Origin: an uncultured Lachnospiraceae bacterium
GTDB taxonomy: Bacteria > Bacillota > Clostridia > Lachnospirales > Lachnospiraceae
DNA length: 64,000 nucleotides
Direction of reading: 5' to 3'
NCBI GenBank assembly: GCA_902789665.1
Contig: CADAOY010000002.1
Coordinates: 124,001-188,000 of the forward strand
In this document: piece after piece, positions 25,502-52,611 of the stretch
Position numbering within the stretch: the first letter of the stretch is position 1
Layout of the letters: the number at the start of each line of letters is the position of its first letter
Notes under the pieces: model-generated
Seen by the model: the letters and a program-made list of their open reading frames with translations, nothing else
The model's database searches: none
What the model was told of the DNA's origin: nothing
Made by a program: the position numbers and the translations under genes

Positions 25502-25595
25502 ATAGCCGTACGAACATGTTAGGATTGAATTGGTTGGAATTTGTTTGAACGAACAAATTTTGGCGTAATTTGGATTGATATGTGCGTACGGCTAT
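25502..25595. promoter_or_regulatory. Nested inverted repeats upstream of hipBA, probable operator region
   Basis: ATAGCCGTACGAACAT (25502-25517) and ATGTGCGTACGGCTAT (25580-25595) are inverted copies with one mismatch. Between them AATTTGTT (25538-25545) and AACAAATT (25552-25559) form a second perfect inverted repeat. The outer right arm ends 13 bases before hipB. HipB antitoxins repress their own operon by binding inverted repeats here, so this is the likely autoregulatory site. It could also extrude as a cruciform. Confidence 0.6.
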
Positions 25596-25608
25596 TTTTG
25601 GTGGTGCT

Positions 25609-25833
25609 ATGAAAGATTATAAGAAAATTAATAATGCGGCAGATTTTGGAAAAATGATAAGGGACAAGCGCAAGAAACTGGGGTATACGCAGCAGTACCT
25701 ATGTGATGTTACGGGGATAAGTACGAGTTTTATTTCTGATTTGGAGAATGGGAAAGAAACGGCGGAGCTGGGGAAGGCGATTTTTCTGGCGAATATGTTA
25801 GGGCTGGATGTTGGACTCATGGAGAGAGGGTAA
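25609..25833 (+). CDS. hipB: HipB-like antitoxin, XRE-family HTH
   Basis: A 74-residue helix-turn-helix protein: IRDKRKKLGYTQQYLCDVTG, then ISTSFISDLENGKETAELGK, the canonical XRE fold with TxxFISxxENG recognition helix. ATG 25609 rather than GTG 25582 is used. The protein length, and the hipA start only 2 bases after its stop, are characteristic of hipBA operons, where HipB neutralises HipA and represses the operon. The inverted repeats directly upstream are its probable targets. Confidence 0.88.
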   Translation: MKDYKKINNAADFGKMIRDKRKKLGYTQQYLCDVTGISTSFISDLENGKETAELGKAIFLANMLGLDVGLMERG

Positions 25834-25835
25834 AA

Positions 25836-27077
25836 GTGAAGAAACTTGATGTATATATACAAGTTAATGGTGAGTTTGTTTATGTAGGGGATATTGTAGG
25901 CAAAGACTACAGCGATGCGACATTTGGATATGGTGATGATTATTTGGCTTCGGCATTAAGACCAATATCTATAAGTCTTCCGCTACAAAAGGAACGTTTT
26001 AGCAAAGAACAGACTTACAGGTATTTTGAAGGATTGCTGCCGGAGGGTTTTGCAAGACGTTCTGTTGCCAAGTGGATTGAAACAGATGAATTGGACTATT
26101 TGACGATACTTGAAAAACTGGGAAGCGAATGTCTTGGAGCCATCAGGATAGGTGATGCTAAACAAGATGATTCTTATGAATTACTGTTGCCGTCCAGGAT
26201 TAAGGATCTGGCATCAGAAGGGACGACTGAATCTACAAAACTATTGATGGAAACACATCTGTCTTTAACCGGTGCGTCTGGAAAAGTTGGGCTGTACTAT
26301 GATGAGCAGAGTGATAAATGGTATTTGCCACATGGGCTAAATGCAAGCACGCATATTCTTAAGCAGAGTCATATAAGATATAAAAAGATGGTTGTCAATG
26401 AACTTCTATGTATGAGAGTTGCCAGGGAAATGGGTATTGATGTGGCAGAGAGTTTAATTATGAATTTAGGTTCCGGAAGGGATGAAGACGTGCTGTATGT
26501 CACCCGGAGATTTGACAGGGTTATGCCAGGTGATTCGTCTCAAGGCATGTTTTCTCCGTACAGACTTCATCAGGAAGATTTTGGTCAGGCGATGGGGATT
26601 GATGCGATTAATAAGTACGAGACGGTTAAGCAGGGATATGTTGGCAGAATGTTTGATCTTGTTCGAAGCTATTCGTCGAAGCCGGTTGAGGATGTGTTAA
26701 AACTTTGGGATATGATTGTTTTTAATTACCTTATTGGTAATACGGACAGTCATATTAAGAATTATTCATTGCTGTATAGTGCCGGACTGGAGCAAATAAG
26801 ACTGGCTCCAGCGTATGACATTATTTCCACGAAAGTGTATGATGGAATGGAAAATATGGCTTTCTATATTGGTGATGAGAGGAATATTAATAATATAGGA
26901 GCAGAGCAGTTTAAGATGGCGGCTGATGAAGCCAGGATTAGTCAGAGTGTTGCCATGGAGAGATACGACCATATAGCAAGAAATGTAGGAGAGGTTATTA
27001 GTAAAGTTTCTGCTGAAATGGCGAGTGAAGGTTTTGAGGATGCTGTGTGGGTTGGGGAGAAAATTAAAGAGGATTGA
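25836..27077 (+). CDS. hipA: HipA-like serine/threonine kinase toxin
   Basis: A 413-residue HipA-family kinase starting at GTG 25836 behind GGAGAGAGGG. The N-terminal couple domain has VYIQVNGEFVYVGDI and YFEGLLPEGFARR. The kinase core has SLTGASGKVGL (Ser-rich loop), HILKQSHIRYK (ATP-binding lysine), VTRRFDR, the catalytic loop NTDSHIKN (302-309) and the metal-binding LAPAYDIIST. All catalytic residues seem intact. HipA of E. coli phosphorylates glutamyl-tRNA synthetase and halts growth. The target here is unknown. A strong terminator follows. Confidence 0.9.
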   Translation: MKKLDVYIQVNGEFVYVGDIVGKDYSDATFGYGDDYLASALRPISISLPLQKERFSKEQTYRYFEGLLPEGFARRSVAKWIETDELDYLTILEKLGSECLGAIRIGDAKQDDSYELLLPSRIKDLASEGTTESTKLLMETHLSLTGASGKVGLYYDEQSDKWYLPHGLNASTHILKQSHIRYKKMVVNELLCMRVAREMGIDVAESLIMNLGSGRDEDVLYVTRRFDRVMPGDSSQGMFSPYRLHQEDFGQAMGIDAINKYETVKQGYVGRMFDLVRSYSSKPVEDVLKLWDMIVFNYLIGNTDSHIKNYSLLYSAGLEQIRLAPAYDIISTKVYDGMENMAFYIGDERNINNIGAEQFKMAADEARISQSVAMERYDHIARNVGEVISKVSAEMASEGFEDAVWVGEKIKED

Positions 27078-27161: not shown

Positions 27162-27202
27162 TTTAGATATTGAATAATGTTTAGGCAAAAGGAGTAAATT
27201 TG

Positions 27203-27628
27203 ATGACTATAAGTGAGCGTATATTTGAGAGATTAACAATGATGCGTATGACACAGAAAGAGTTTTCGGAGAAAACAGGGATACAGCAAAGTACAATCAG
27301 TGAGTGGAAGAAGAATAAAACCAATCCATCTTCAGATAAGATTATGTCGATATGCAAGGTTCTTGGAGTTACAGCCGATTGGCTGCTTTCGGGGGTTGAC
27401 CCGGCAGGGAGCAGAGTTGATGGATTTGAGTACTATACTGTAAAGAAAGATACGGATATGGGAAGGCTGATTGCATATTATAATAAACTGAATCCTGGGA
27501 AAAGGGAACGTATTATGGGATATATTGAAGGGTTTATGTCAATGGAGAAAAGTACGGGCTTCTTTACAGATGACTTTATGGAGGATTATGAGTCGTCTAA
27601 GCCGAATGATAAGAGGGTGGAATTGTAA
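27203..27628 (+). CDS. XRE-family transcriptional regulator
   Basis: A 141-residue phage-repressor-like regulator. Residues 1-65 are an HTH of the CI/Cro type: ERIFERLTMMRMTQKEFSEK, TGIQQSTISEWKKNKTNPSS and VLGVTADWLLSGVDP. The C-terminal part (YYNKLNPGKRERIMGYIEGF) is a short helical dimerisation segment. There is no peptidase domain, so it is not a LexA-like repressor. ATG 27203 follows AAAAGGAG. It has its own consensus promoter with a palindrome at +1. It may be a leftover prophage or mobile-element regulator. Confidence 0.85.
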   Translation: MTISERIFERLTMMRMTQKEFSEKTGIQQSTISEWKKNKTNPSSDKIMSICKVLGVTADWLLSGVDPAGSRVDGFEYYTVKKDTDMGRLIAYYNKLNPGKRERIMGYIEGFMSMEKSTGFFTDDFMEDYESSKPNDKRVEL

Positions 27629-27652: not shown

Positions 27653-27751
27653 TTGGCAGAAATATATAGATTTGATTCAAATGGAAAACCTTTTTTGTTC
27701 CCTACAATGGAACTTGACAAAAGTGATGGTAGGAAGATTATATTGACTTAA
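27653..27751 (+). CDS. Possible 32-residue peptide, remnant of a longer gene
   Basis: TTG 27653 opens a 32-codon frame (AEIYRFDSNGKPFLFPTM...GRKIILT) 12 bases after GGGGAGG. The strong ribosome-binding site suggests that a real gene once began here. The short length and promoter-like TTGACT overlapping its end suggest truncation. I do not recognise the sequence. Confidence 0.3.
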   Translation: MAEIYRFDSNGKPFLFPTMELDKSDGRKIILT

Positions 27752-27771
27752 ACAAAATATATTGGTATGGT
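27743..27771 (+). promoter_or_regulatory. Promoter-like pair ahead of the first Abi-associated RNA candidate
   Basis: TTGACT (27743-27748), a 17-base spacer and TATGGT (27766-27771) precede a hairpin-ended segment. The same layout recurs at 28053-28147 ahead of the intact Abi_2 gene. Confidence 0.45.
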
Positions 27772-27777
27772 ATAGGT

Positions 27778-27835
27778 AACAATTCCCCCAGGCCTCTACT
27801 TAGGTATGCACACTTGGGGGCTTTCTGTTTTTAAG
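27778..27835 (+). ncRNA. Candidate small RNA with terminator, upstream of decayed Abi_2 gene
   Basis: A start near 27778 would give an RNA of about 55 nt. It contains CCCCCA (27785-27790) pairing with TGGGGG (27815-27820) and an inner CCT/AGG hairpin, followed by a T-rich tail (CTTTCTGTTTTT). Its place directly before an Abi_2 remnant mirrors the RNA ahead of the intact Abi_2 gene. It could instead simply be a terminator for the XRE gene. Confidence 0.4.
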
Positions 27836-27846
27836 GGGGTATTTCT

Positions 27847-27969
27847 ATTAAAAAGTTTAAAACAATACAGGAACAAATAGATACATTAAAAAGTCGAGGG
27901 TTAATTATTCCTGAAAATGATTACCTATTGGCTGAAGAGTTTTTATTATGGTTCTTGTTACTTCTGTGA
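27847..27969 (+). pseudogene. Abi_2 (AbiD/AbiF) family remnant, N-terminal fragment
   Basis: The frame reads KKFKTIQEQIDTLKSRGLII, then PENDYLLAEEFLLW before losing similarity and ending at TGA 27967. That is the N-terminal signature of Abi_2 proteins. Compare LTIDEQIEKLKSHGVTIED in the intact gene at 28168. The start codon position is ATT, behind AAGGGGG, so the ATG may be mutated. The ~250 residues after it, with the HEPN motif, are missing. Confidence 0.55.
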
Positions 27970-28052
27970 AAAAGTTAAATGGTAAATGATTGTAAATATA
28001 AAATAAAAAATTGCTTAGATAAATTTTTTCGGCAGCATTTGCAAATAAGGGG

Positions 28053-28081
28053 TTGGATTTTTTTTGTGGATACGATATAAT
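28053..28081 (+). promoter_or_regulatory. Promoter of the Abi_2-associated RNA candidate
   Basis: TTGGAT (28053-28058), a 17-base spacer and a perfect TATAAT (28076-28081) predict a start near 28088, only 60 bases before a terminator and 80 before the Abi_2 gene. Confidence 0.65.
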
Positions 28082-28087
28082 TATATT

Positions 28088-28147
28088 AACAGAGTTGCCC
28101 AGTCTTTGCATTGGGGACCAGGTCGGGACTTGTATCTCGACCTTTTT
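28088..28147 (+). ncRNA. Candidate ~60-nt RNA ahead of Abi_2, possible RNA antitoxin
   Basis: A promoter at 28053-28081 and a terminator hairpin (GGTCGGGA 28121-28128, loop CTTGTA, TCTCGACC 28135-28142, then five T) delimit a short non-coding unit ending 20 bases before the Abi_2 start. A conserved structured RNA (abiF motif) is known next to Abi_2 genes, and from memory these RNAs act as antitoxins of HEPN RNases. I cannot confirm that this sequence fits that motif. Some read-through would be needed to express Abi_2 from the same promoter. Confidence 0.55.
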
Positions 28148-28167
28148 ACTTATAAGGAGCAATGTTT

Positions 28168-29046
28168 ATGGAATTAAAACGACCACTTACAATTGACGAA
28201 CAAATAGAAAAGTTGAAATCTCATGGAGTTACAATTGAAGATGACAACGAAGCAAAATCATTTTTACAGCAGGTTAGTTATTATAGACTTACAGGATATA
28301 CCTTACAATTTAGAAAAACACCTTCTAATAGTGACTTGGCAACAAGTCATTCTTTGTCTGAAATACGAGAGCTATATAAATTCGATGCTCAGCTTAGAAC
28401 ATTAATTCGTCATTATATTGAAATAAATGAGGTATACTACAAAACGCTTATTTCAAGAGAGTTTGCTTTAGAAAAATGTCTTCAACCACCACATGATCAG
28501 CATTATGATCCGGACAATTATTACAATAAAGAAGGCTTCGATAAAACAATTAAAAGATTTGAAAAAGAAGAACAATACTATGAAGACAGCTTAATTGTTA
28601 AGCATCATAAGCAAAATTATTCAGGGAAAATGCCTATGTGGGTTATGTTTGAGCTTATGTCATTTTCAAACATCTCAATGTTGTATAGTGCAATGTACGT
28701 AAGCACACAAAACGAAATTGCGAATAAAGTTGGAATTGGTGGAAAAACCTTGGCAAACCATCTTCATTGTATGGCTGTTTTGAGAAATAAATGTGCTCAT
28801 GCCTCAAGATTAATAAATACAAGATATAATCCACCGGCAAAGTTATCGCAAAAATTCTTGAGAGATAACCCAAGCATTAGTAATGATTCGTTATTTGCAT
28901 ATCTAAAAACTCTTAAATATAGATTACCATCCGATACGCTTAGGATAGAGTTTAAAGATGAAATAATTAAATTGTTGGATGAATATGCAGATGTGGTAGA
29001 TTTGTCATTGATTGGATTTCCGACTAATTATAAAAATATTCTGTAA
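28168..29046 (+). CDS. Abi_2 (AbiD/AbiF) family HEPN protein, abortive infection
   Basis: A 292-residue Abi_2 protein: LTIDEQIEKLKSHGV, FLQQVSYYRLTGYTLQF, ELYKFDAQLRTLIRHYIEIN and MPMWVMFELMSFSNISMLY are its usual blocks. The C-terminal LRNKCAHASRL contains RxxxxH (R206-H211), the catalytic motif of HEPN ribonucleases. Upstream ATG 28162 is only 2 bases from GGAG, so ATG 28168 (spacing 8) is preferred. Abi_2 proteins stop phage growth by killing or arresting the infected cell. Expression probably depends on limited read-through of the terminator just upstream. A decayed second copy lies at 27847. Confidence 0.88.
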   Translation: MELKRPLTIDEQIEKLKSHGVTIEDDNEAKSFLQQVSYYRLTGYTLQFRKTPSNSDLATSHSLSEIRELYKFDAQLRTLIRHYIEINEVYYKTLISREFALEKCLQPPHDQHYDPDNYYNKEGFDKTIKRFEKEEQYYEDSLIVKHHKQNYSGKMPMWVMFELMSFSNISMLYSAMYVSTQNEIANKVGIGGKTLANHLHCMAVLRNKCAHASRLINTRYNPPAKLSQKFLRDNPSISNDSLFAYLKTLKYRLPSDTLRIEFKDEIIKLLDEYADVVDLSLIGFPTNYKNIL

Positions 29047-29204: not shown

Positions 29205-29264
29205 AAGGGCTGGTCGTTAGACCCAGGTCCATCGACGGTGGGGAAGTTCCCCGCCATTTTTTTT
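29205..29264 (+). ncRNA. Third terminator-ended RNA candidate near Abi_2
   Basis: GGTC-GTTA-GACC (29212-29223) is followed by the linker CAGGTCCATCGAC and a strong terminator, GGTGGGG (29237-29243), loop AAGTT, CCCCGCC (29249-29255) and eight T. There is no gene for 160 bases upstream. The unit could be a small RNA of about 60 nt or only the terminator of the Abi_2 transcript. I see no convincing promoter for it. Confidence 0.4.
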
Positions 29265-29321: not shown

Positions 29322-29416
29322 AGTCGGGAGCAAGGGTGAGATGAGGCGATGTCGTGGTGACCGTGTGATGATTGTGTGGTGCCAGTGGACTTGGTAAAGG
29401 CTGAGGGCTCTTGCTA
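29322..29416 (+). promoter_or_regulatory. Structured 5' leader candidate of nagB
   Basis: This G-rich stretch stands out from its AT-rich flanks. AGCAAGGG near its 5' end pairs with CTCTTGCT at its 3' end (8 bp, one G-U), closing a ~80-nt domain. Short internal hairpins include GGTGACC and TGGTGCCA. It contains no reading frame of note, no tRNA T-loop and no terminator. It ends about 30 bases before nagB. It may be a cis-regulatory RNA. I cannot match it to the glmS ribozyme or another class I know. Confidence 0.45.
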
Positions 29417-29443
29417 GATAATAAATATACGTGGGGTGAATAA

Positions 29444-50650: not shown

Positions 50651-50694
50651 AAAAATGTGCCCCCATTTGACACTTCATTGAGAGGTGTGGGGGC
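50651..50694 (-). terminator. Terminator of the membrane LuxR-type regulator gene
   Basis: On the - strand GCCCCCA (50694-50688) pairs with TGGGGGC (50665-50659), with an inner helix formed by ACACCT and AAGTGT, and five T at 50655-50651. It lies about 80 bases after the regulator's stop. Confidence 0.6.
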
Positions 50695-50775
50695 TCCTGT
50701 TAGTAATAATTATAACAAAAAGTATGTTAAATACAACTCTTTTTAGAGAAGAATAATTGATAATACAACTCTGGC

Positions 50776-52611
50776 TTATCGTTCTTCATAGAAAAGGGCG
50801 CTGATCTCAGGAAGGGAGTTGGTGCCTGTTTTTTCTTTTATGCCCGCTATGTGCCTTGAGATTGTTCGTAAGGTGATGTTTTGCATGTCTGCCAGCTCTT
50901 TCTGAGTTTTGCCGGGATTAGCGAGAAAGAGGGAGAGGGTGGCTGTTTCTTTATCTGATAATTTGTATTTACCTGCCCAGGAAGCGACCTGCTCGTCGAA
51001 GGATGGGGTGGACGCCGGGGCAGAGGTTGTGGCTGAGGTCGGAGTGGTCCCCGGGGCGGAGGTTGTGGTGATGGTCGGAGTGGACGCCGGAACGGCGGGT
51101 GCGGTCGGGGTAGACGCTGGGGCGGAGGTTGTGACCGTGGTCGGAGTGGTCCCCGGGGTAGAGGTTGTGCCAGGTGCTGGTATCTGGTTGTCTGATTCGT
51201 TTGGCGAGGTTGGAGCATTAGCAGGGGCAATGCCAGGGGTGTCATAGTAAAGCTGCTTTACAGCCTGGAATGAGGAACAGCCTGTCTTGTCGCAGATATT
51301 ACTTAAGGTTCGGTAGAGGACGGATCTGGATATATACAGGTTCCTTGCAAGTTCTGACATATTACCGTCAAAAGAAATAGCTGTAATGAACAGTTCCGCT
51401 TCTTTATCCGTAAGATTATATTTCTTAACAAAATCATAAGGTGATATATGATAGACGCTGTCTGTCTTTGCTTCGGACATATTGAGTTCACCTGTAATGG
51501 CAAAGATAATAATGATAATAATGGTGCAAACAAGCTCAATTCCTACAATGATATAACTTGGAAAAGTATAAAAAAGTGGAGTAATAAAAATAAATGAAAA
51601 AATAGAGTCCACCACACGGCCACTGGTAGCAATAAGCGGCGCGAAACGCTGGCCACGTGAAAGCTTAAGCATCATCAGCACAAAGAAACTGTTATTGGTT
51701 CCAGCAACTATGTAATAAATACAGGCATTAGCATAGGTTGACGATACGTCCTTTAGAAGTATAGGATTAAGAATTCCGAATAGCACAAGGGTAATGGAGA
51801 TGATGCTGATATATTTCATATCCTTTATTTCCATAGCAATACCCATAATAATATAAGGAATTATAATAAATAGTCTCGGCGAATCGTAAACGGCCATATT
51901 GTTATGATACAGACCTTCCAAGAGGGAGAAAGTAAGGAAGTTTCCAATAAACTCATATAATATGACAACGATAATCATTGAGATAAAGAAAAAGAGGAAA
52001 CTATGCTTGTTTTCTAATTCGATTTTGTCATCGCTAAGTTCACCGGGTAAAGTATCGTTACTAAGCACCCAGTCAGTCATCGCTTTAAGGAAAGCAACTA
52101 CTAACAGAGCATACAAGCATACATTGGATGAAAGTATAAATTGCATAACATATTGGCATAGAATGGCAGCGGATGTACCTATGATGTAAATAAGCCCTAC
52201 AAAGTGTAATTTATCAAGGGCTACAGACAGGTGAACATAGTAATAGACACATTCAAATCCTATCAATATAGTGAAAAGATACATGCAAAATATGAAAATA
52301 TGTGAGTTGTGTGTTTTATAAATAAATAGAATCGCAGGAGCACTTAGAAGTGAAATAATTCCCATCAGACGTTTTAATGTGGTCTTGCTTATATGAATAA
52401 AGCTTAAGATAAGGCCGGCAATGATAATTGAACAGCCAAAAGTAAGCATGATAAGCCTGTTATGAAACATGGCTCTGTTTTCGTCCATAAATTCGTTAAT
52501 ACGCATATTGGAATAACTCATTACAGTTGAGTAAGTAAAATTATAGAAGAAAAATAAAATTGCAAGTAAAATATGATTCTTGCCAAATCTTTTTTTAGAG
52601 CCGATGTCCAT
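50776..52611 (-). CDS. Twelve-TM membrane protein with two LuxR-type HTH domains
   Basis: A 611-residue protein. The first ~375 residues hold about twelve membrane helices in an MFS-like layout (ILLAILFFFYNFTYSTVMSY onward). A LuxR-type HTH follows (about 388-450: YNLTDKEAELFITAISFD, NMSELARNLYISRSVLYRTL). A Thr/Pro/Ala-rich linker (about 455-538) leads to a second HTH (about 545-605: YKLSDKETATLSLFL, TQKELADMQNITLRTISRHI). The design suggests a membrane sensor that binds DNA directly. GAGGTG lies just before ATG 52611. GTGTCACC words at 52616 and 52734 flank the divergent spacer and might be operator sites for the adjacent surface-protein gene. Confidence 0.8.
   Translation of the reverse strand: MDIGSKKRFGKNHILLAILFFFYNFTYSTVMSYSNMRINEFMDENRAMFHNRLIMLTFGCSIIIAGLILSFIHISKTTLKRLMGIISLLSAPAILFIYKTHNSHIFIFCMYLFTILIGFECVYYYVHLSVALDKLHFVGLIYIIGTSAAILCQYVMQFILSSNVCLYALLVVAFLKAMTDWVLSNDTLPGELSDDKIELENKHSFLFFFISMIIVVILYEFIGNFLTFSLLEGLYHNNMAVYDSPRLFIIIPYIIMGIAMEIKDMKYISIISITLVLFGILNPILLKDVSSTYANACIYYIVAGTNNSFFVLMMLKLSRGQRFAPLIATSGRVVDSIFSFIFITPLFYTFPSYIIVGIELVCTIIIIIIFAITGELNMSEAKTDSVYHISPYDFVKKYNLTDKEAELFITAISFDGNMSELARNLYISRSVLYRTLSNICDKTGCSSFQAVKQLYYDTPGIAPANAPTSPNESDNQIPAPGTTSTPGTTPTTVTTSAPASTPTAPAVPASTPTITTTSAPGTTPTSATTSAPASTPSFDEQVASWAGKYKLSDKETATLSLFLANPGKTQKELADMQNITLRTISRHIAGIKEKTGTNSLPEISALFYEER
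51004..51180 (-). repeat. Low-complexity tandem repeat encoding the interdomain linker
   Basis: Words such as GGTCGGAGTGGTCCCCGGGG and GGCGGAGGTTGTG recur several times and encode TTSAPASTPT/TPGTTPT-type units on the - strand. The block is much G/C-richer than the rest of the gene. Unit number probably varies between strains. Confidence 0.75.

Follow-up and report, generated by a model that had tools for sequence, protein, structure and literature searches.

Pairs of an AbiF protein and a small RNA are proposed ancestors of Cas13. One of them, PbAbiF with AbiFr in structure 8VZ6, is reportedly the work of Zilberzwige-Tal et al. (Cell 2025). A figure legend in PMC12737573 identifies 8VZ6 as PbAbiF with its ncRNA. 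For the prophages of C. difficile, the available text of PMC12373285 describes AbiFCd, whose measured toxicity depends on R202 and H207, and the RNA RCd22, which binds and neutralizes AbiFCd in cis and in trans; it also gives AbiF of Clostridioides phage phiC2 as 99.88% identical to AbiFCd. The AbiF-type pair is thus a known kind of system. Here we analyze a locus in a 64,000-nt stretch of Lachnospiraceae DNA (the window) and read it, with a probability of about 0.82, as an AbiF-type (type III-like) toxin-antitoxin and phage defense pair in which a short RNA would block a HEPN RNase.

The features of the locus and its surroundings are listed in Table 1. As in AbiF-type (type III-like) pairs, a structured RNA lies upstream of the gene on the same strand, a terminator precedes the gene, and the RNA is conserved with the gene. 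The terminator stem (28120 to 28143) has 9 bp and is followed by a T run, from which 20 nt lead to the Abi_2 start, too short a distance for a second promoter. Terminator-like sites numbered 5 in 2 kb, against 1.0 in shuffled sequences. Folding of positions 28085 to 28148 was moderate relative to shuffles (z −2.34), and that of the longer stretch from 28050 to 28160 was no better than in shuffles (z −0.83). The sequence-only reading of this DNA had proposed a 60-base RNA ending in a terminator immediately before the Abi_2 gene, and this was confirmed. Its “good promoter” held in part. The −10 hexamer is a perfect consensus match, and a −10 box of at least 5/6 was found, nearly always exactly 6 nt before the RNA start, in 22 of 25 RNAs whose upstream sequence was long enough, the window copy among them, against a background of 7.3% of 5,200 random positions in the same loci. 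The −35 hexamer is weak, matching the consensus at 3/6 positions, and the promoter is absent from our consensus-scan list because that scan requires 4/6.

Table 1. Features of the Abi_2 locus and of related elements in the window
Feature	Position	Strand	Details
Second AbiF-like unit	27743-27832	+	Promoter-like site TTGACT-17-TATGGT; nested RNA 27778-27832, L016/L020 type
Second Abi_2 gene stump	27844-27960	+	N-terminal ~36 aa, closest to L020/L014 proteins
Candidate promoter	28053-28081	+	−35 TTGGAT (28053-28058), 17-nt spacer, −10 TATAAT (28076-28081)
60-nt RNA	28088-28147	+	Starts with AACAGAG; hairpin GUUgCCC..GGGGAC; CA linker; terminator hairpin
Intrinsic terminator at RNA 3′ end	28120-28147	+	Terminator scan; stem pairs covary in relatives
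Predicted Abi_2/AbiD-F HEPN RNase gene	28168-29046	+	292 aa, RNKCAH at R206-H211; Pfam, PADLOC, 8VZ6 and phiC2 AbiF matches
DUF3800-XI RNA and terminator	29206-29262 (RNA 29206-29252)	+	Rfam RF02975, 58.7 bits, E 2e-10
Third, orphan nested AbiF-like RNA	50651-50701	−	Model R2; own −10 at 50709-50714, terminator

For the Abi_2 gene, the start at 28168 is preferred over 28162 because of the spacing to the ribosome-binding site and because M1, L3, K4, P6, and T8 are invariant in 9/9 aligned relatives. The product has a single Abi_2 domain with one conserved RxxxxH motif in its 292 residues. R206 and H211, which the sequence-only reading had numbered correctly as part of a HEPN motif, are likewise invariant in 9/9 (292-aa numbering). 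Pfam Abi_2 matched at E 4.9e-43 (148 bits versus 25.6) and PADLOC AbiD at E 1.7e-78, while an NCBIfam search of the protein gave no match. Among solved structures, 8VZ6 was the sole match (E 5.9e-21, residues 10 to 289), with the RNxxxH motif aligned, and a full-length alignment to phiC2 AbiF showed 30% identity, with RNKCAH against RNQCAH; the link to the AbiF lineage that had been suggested is thus upheld. The gene product is probably an RNA-cutting toxin, and from tested relatives we infer RNase activity, toxicity, and RNA-protein binding for the window pair.

The window RNA belongs to a real family, with 26 copies in the final set. Model R1 of this family, in whose building the window copy was included, matched the window RNA at E 4e-15, and its next-best window matches had E values of 1 and 1.5. 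When 14 RNAs were aligned, 94.9% of the cells at paired positions held standard pairs, and both sides had changed at 7/17 pairs (3.1 in shuffled and at most 3 in slid controls). With all 26 RNAs, aligned by fitting them to the model, the corresponding values were 93.8% and 7/17 (slid controls at most 3), and 37 cells were double changed, compared with 14.1 in shuffles and at most 7 in slid controls; the number of further pair types was not above that of shuffles (227 of 500). Hairpin pairs 7-36, 8-35, and 12-32 are invariant, and among 23 distinct rows the three innermost hairpin pairs are missing from 4, 11, and 8; proof of the stem therefore comes chiefly from its middle and from the terminator.

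We then followed the pairing of RNA and protein. Of 397 genomes of the family, 47 contain Abi_2 relatives with E ≤ 1e-20. These lie in 51 places, of which 30 were examined. Among these 30, the RNA lies directly upstream of all seven full-length relatives with at least 50% identity (window included). A Lachnospiraceae MAG from another collection (L002) brings the count to 8/8 full-length genes identified independently of the RNA, and a ninth (L052) came from a search with the RNA itself; no full-length gene lacked the RNA, a statement that covers 8 or 9 genes. A broken gene of the same protein clade in Butyrivibrio (L003) is without the RNA. This conserved, covarying RNA in relatives supports the earlier description of the locus as having the layout of an RNA-regulated toxin.

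At about 30% protein identity (L013 to L032), R1 matched 0/20 loci. Instead, a second model, R2, built from nested AbiF-like RNAs without the window sequence, found nested RNAs in 15/20, 8 of these 15 being its training set; a nested RNA was recognized by eye in L016, L018, and L020, and L021 and L032 have neither type. In a 27-protein tree, a single clade with support of 100/100 unites the 8 rows that have the window-type RNA, and a sister clade (L013, L015, L019, and others; support 80/87) has nested RNAs; with shuffled labels, the RNA type needs 7.0 changes on the tree on average. R2 was rejected as a general model of nested RNAs, as it misses those of L016, L018, L020, and phiC2 and one in the window described below.

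R1 matched 17 of 392 genomes of the order, 16 of them in the same family, and 3 of 196 genomes of the class, all in that family; these samples overlap and cover a part of each group. The lone match outside the family was weak and was judged to be chance. Matches dropped as chance were two of 13 pattern matches (L034 and L041), which have no AACAG start, and the R1 match G503/L062 (E 0.003); a reversed control pattern gave one match. Viral contigs, searched by protein for close relatives only and by RNA pattern, yielded no relative, and plasmids yielded no RNA match. Abi_2 relatives occur in 51 phage and 326 plasmid records, all with less than 60% identity.

The window holds further small RNAs that the sequence-only reading had not included in this finding: the RNA at 27778 with its gene stump, the RNA at 50.7 kb, and the DUF3800-XI RNA. 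The local alignment score of 27778 to 27832 was 49 to both the L016 and the L020 RNA, with a maximum of 29 elsewhere in the window, and 43 against 33 for the L018 RNA. Because R2 misses it, as does Rfam, the call rests on this direct alignment and on the stump, which matched at 59% over 34 aa (blastp-short, E 3e-7, against 31 Abi_2 sequences); blastn-short pieces by themselves were weak (E 0.13), as was the fold of the RNA alone (z −0.74). The RNA at 50651 to 50701 scored 28.8 bits with R2 (rough E values of 5e-5 in the window and 0.0018 in the genome). No Abi_2 gene was found within its 3-kb locus, and the gene that follows it matched an auxin efflux carrier model below that model's cutoff. 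Nearby, 50776 to 52611 (minus strand) encodes a regulator-like protein, LuxR-like by eye, with a long low-complexity stretch of Thr, Ser, Pro, and Ala.

No DUF3800 gene was matched beside the DUF3800-XI RNA at its locus (L093). RNAs of this type occur in 28 of 200 family genomes, and 20 of 30 such loci examined have a relative of the L050 DUF3800-like protein, a name inferred from the adjacent RNA; DUF3800 is treated in the available part of PMC10910872. A search of 29 DUF3800-XI loci returned no clear R1 match and two R2 matches. The Abi units are adjoined by a HipB-like/HipA pair (25582 to 27077, plus strand) and a further HTH regulator (27200 to 27628). Between the DUF3800-XI RNA and a glucosamine-6-phosphate isomerase-like gene lies a G-rich stretch (29323 to 29417, plus strand) with no stable fold (z 0.28) and no Rfam match.

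What is new here is the occurrence of RNAs that lack an intact toxin gene. To judge gene absence, we compared the window protein by tblastn with about 1.5 kb of sequence to either side of the RNA. Among the 26 RNAs, 9 have a full-length gene downstream, 5 a broken or truncated one (L012, L033, L043, L044, and L046; in L043, by eye, the start codon and last codons remain), and 10 no recognizable gene (L036, L050, L051, L054 to L057, and L059 to L061). The one RNA match in a phage record (PV036449, L123) lies at the record end, before the first few leftover gene codons, and is perhaps host DNA beside a prophage. Setting aside L039, which lies at a contig end, an intact gene is missing for 16/25 RNAs: ten have no recognizable gene, and six adjoin a broken one. 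A single locus in one genus accounts for five of the 16. The −10 box and the core are retained in most of the orphan RNAs. An intact gene is thus often missing next to the RNA, but no full-length gene is without the RNA, which is the asymmetry expected of an antitoxin. That the RNA is often kept in relatives after toxin loss hints at a use of its own.

Nested RNAs gave a similar picture. Of 40 places listed, 30 loci were examined by tblastn with 31 relatives, and 9 had a full-length Abi_2 gene (5 of them R2 training loci), 3 a fragment, and 18 none; divergent Abi_2 genes may be missed in this check, and the weakest R2 matches may be chance. The genes downstream of the orphans vary by locus, and a common partner gene behind them, sought by eye, was not seen. 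In L050 and L051, about 600 nt or less separates an orphan window-type RNA from a DUF3800-XI RNA, and in L051 from a skipping-rope RNA as well, which hints at clusters of small RNA/toxin units. A literature search on type III orphan RNA antitoxins and on abiF with other RNA motifs found, in the text available, no report of orphan AbiF RNAs, and AbiF is not mentioned in the accessible part of PMC12654330.

Two explanations of the orphans were considered. The first, to which we give an even chance, is that they are young ruins left by lost pairs and serve no function themselves, an explanation compatible with the others. Gene remnants beside six RNAs fit it, as does L061, whose RNA has decayed in its 5′ part and promoter. 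The five-species locus (L054, L056, L057, L059, and L060) bears on it in both directions. In six of its ten species pairs, the RNA is 97 to 100% identical and the next 200 nt 96 to 98%, hardly different, as young ruins would be, but the four pairs that include the most divergent species show 94 to 95% for the RNA against 83% for the next 200 nt and 52 to 68% for the promoter region. The 18/30 nested-type loci without Abi_2 also speak against it. In this locus, conserved across five species in one genus, the orphan RNA lies upstream of a small gene, and the upstream flanks differ; in L054, the small gene is followed by a gene that we take to be zeta-toxin-like.

The second explanation, to which we give less than an even chance, is that solo AbiF-type antitoxin RNAs are kept in this family as trans-acting antidotes or reused small RNAs, independent of a local toxin. 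It is based on the genome having three AbiF-like RNAs of three subtypes against one intact Abi_2 gene and on RNAs outnumbering intact toxins among the loci examined. If true, AbiF toxins arriving on mobile elements could be disarmed by such solo RNAs, which would be the RNA counterpart of solo protein antitoxins. Orphan RNAs offer a natural test of selection on an antitoxin RNA without its toxin.

The orphans also bear on the function of the window RNA, as they suggest a role in trans. An RNA that is purely a cis-acting leader, a terminator or attenuator limiting Abi_2 transcription and unbound by the protein, would account for the terminator 20 nt before the gene with no room for another promoter, and RCd22 also acts in cis according to the available text of PMC12373285. 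We nevertheless consider this improbable. A leader should decay after gene loss, so the 16 orphans, most with promoter element and core retained, speak against it; in addition, the most conserved part lies in the 5′ hairpin, which termination does not require. A role in trans is thus favored over a mere leader, with decay in progress also possible. That the RNA instead guides the RNase to base-paired targets, as crRNA does in Cas13, we regard as very improbable, since the RNA has no free variable stretch that could serve as a spacer, its variation falling in hairpin loops and in pairs, and the 292-aa protein has one HEPN motif, even though the HEPN domains of AbiD/F group with those of Cas13an in the available text of PMC12165695.

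For the AbiF-type pair that we favor, we propose the following course of events. A single promoter would produce the 60-nt RNA, mostly ending at its own terminator, and occasional read-through would yield the HEPN RNase mRNA, the terminator keeping toxin output low, as in C. difficile. The abundant short RNA would bind and block the RNase; more speculatively, the RNase may be dimeric and contact the RNA through the hairpin and the GGGGACC element. Loss of the RNA, for example through phage shutoff of host transcription (the phage trigger again being more freely supposed), would release the RNase, which would then cut single-stranded RNA and stop growth. Counted against the AbiF-type reading are the lack of an Rfam abiF match, L003, folding of the longer stretch at the level of shuffles, the pair evidence (invariant pairs, inner pairs missing from many copies, and pair types no more numerous than in shuffles), and the count of 8 or 9 genes behind the observation that no full-length gene lacks the RNA.

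The fit to the Rfam abiF model (RF03085, cutoff 37), which the sequence-only reading had raised, failed. At gathering level, Rfam found DUF3800-XI only over the window and no abiF, and between 27600 and 29500 no abiF match appeared down to E 10, while the motif was found before phiC2 AbiF, our positive control, at 37.6 bits. Rfam at its cutoff recovered the nested abiF-like RNA in 1/14 loci at about 30% identity (L030), and since most nested relatives are missed in this way, the negative result alone has limited weight. The different fold weighs more in setting the RNA apart: in Rfam abiF, an outer stem encloses an inner hairpin, whereas the window RNA lacks the outer stem and forms its terminator hairpin separately. 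With the caveat on missed relatives, we rejected Rfam abiF as its identity. Both RNAs occupy the same position before Abi_2 genes, and the window RNA and the nested RNAs of the sister clade (e.g., L013 and L019) have in common that they start with AACAG and that a short stem leads into GGACCA. From these sequence features a common origin is likely, although not proven. The best reading is that the window RNA is a new subtype of the AbiF-type RNA-antitoxin/HEPN-toxin pair, new in relation to Rfam 15 as searched here; the wider AbiF models of Zilberzwige-Tal et al., mentioned in PMC12804078, may cover it. As a second RNA architecture in the same toxin family, it indicates that the RNA partner can be rebuilt, with the nested stem lost and a separate terminator gained, while clade pairing is kept, and RNA swaps between clades could put the coevolution of RNA and HEPN RNase to a direct test.

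Compared by protein alone, PbAbiF (8VZ6) is homologous to the window protein over nearly its whole length. Other described systems resemble the locus in part. The DUF3800-XI RNA (RF02975) is likewise a short hairpin with a terminator, often before a gene and sometimes alone, but its sequence and partner protein are unrelated to the window RNA and Abi_2. Cas13 carries two HEPN domains per protein, where the window protein has one. Neither R1 nor R2 finds the phiC2 RNA, and RCd22 has two abiF motif copies in about 100 to 132 nt, whereas the 60 nt of the window RNA comprise a single, different hairpin and a separate terminator. In layout, however, AbiFCd-RCd22, as presented in the available text of PMC12373285, is like the window locus, with an RNA transcribed from a vegetative promoter, a terminator, and an Abi_2 gene with RNxCAH reached by read-through.
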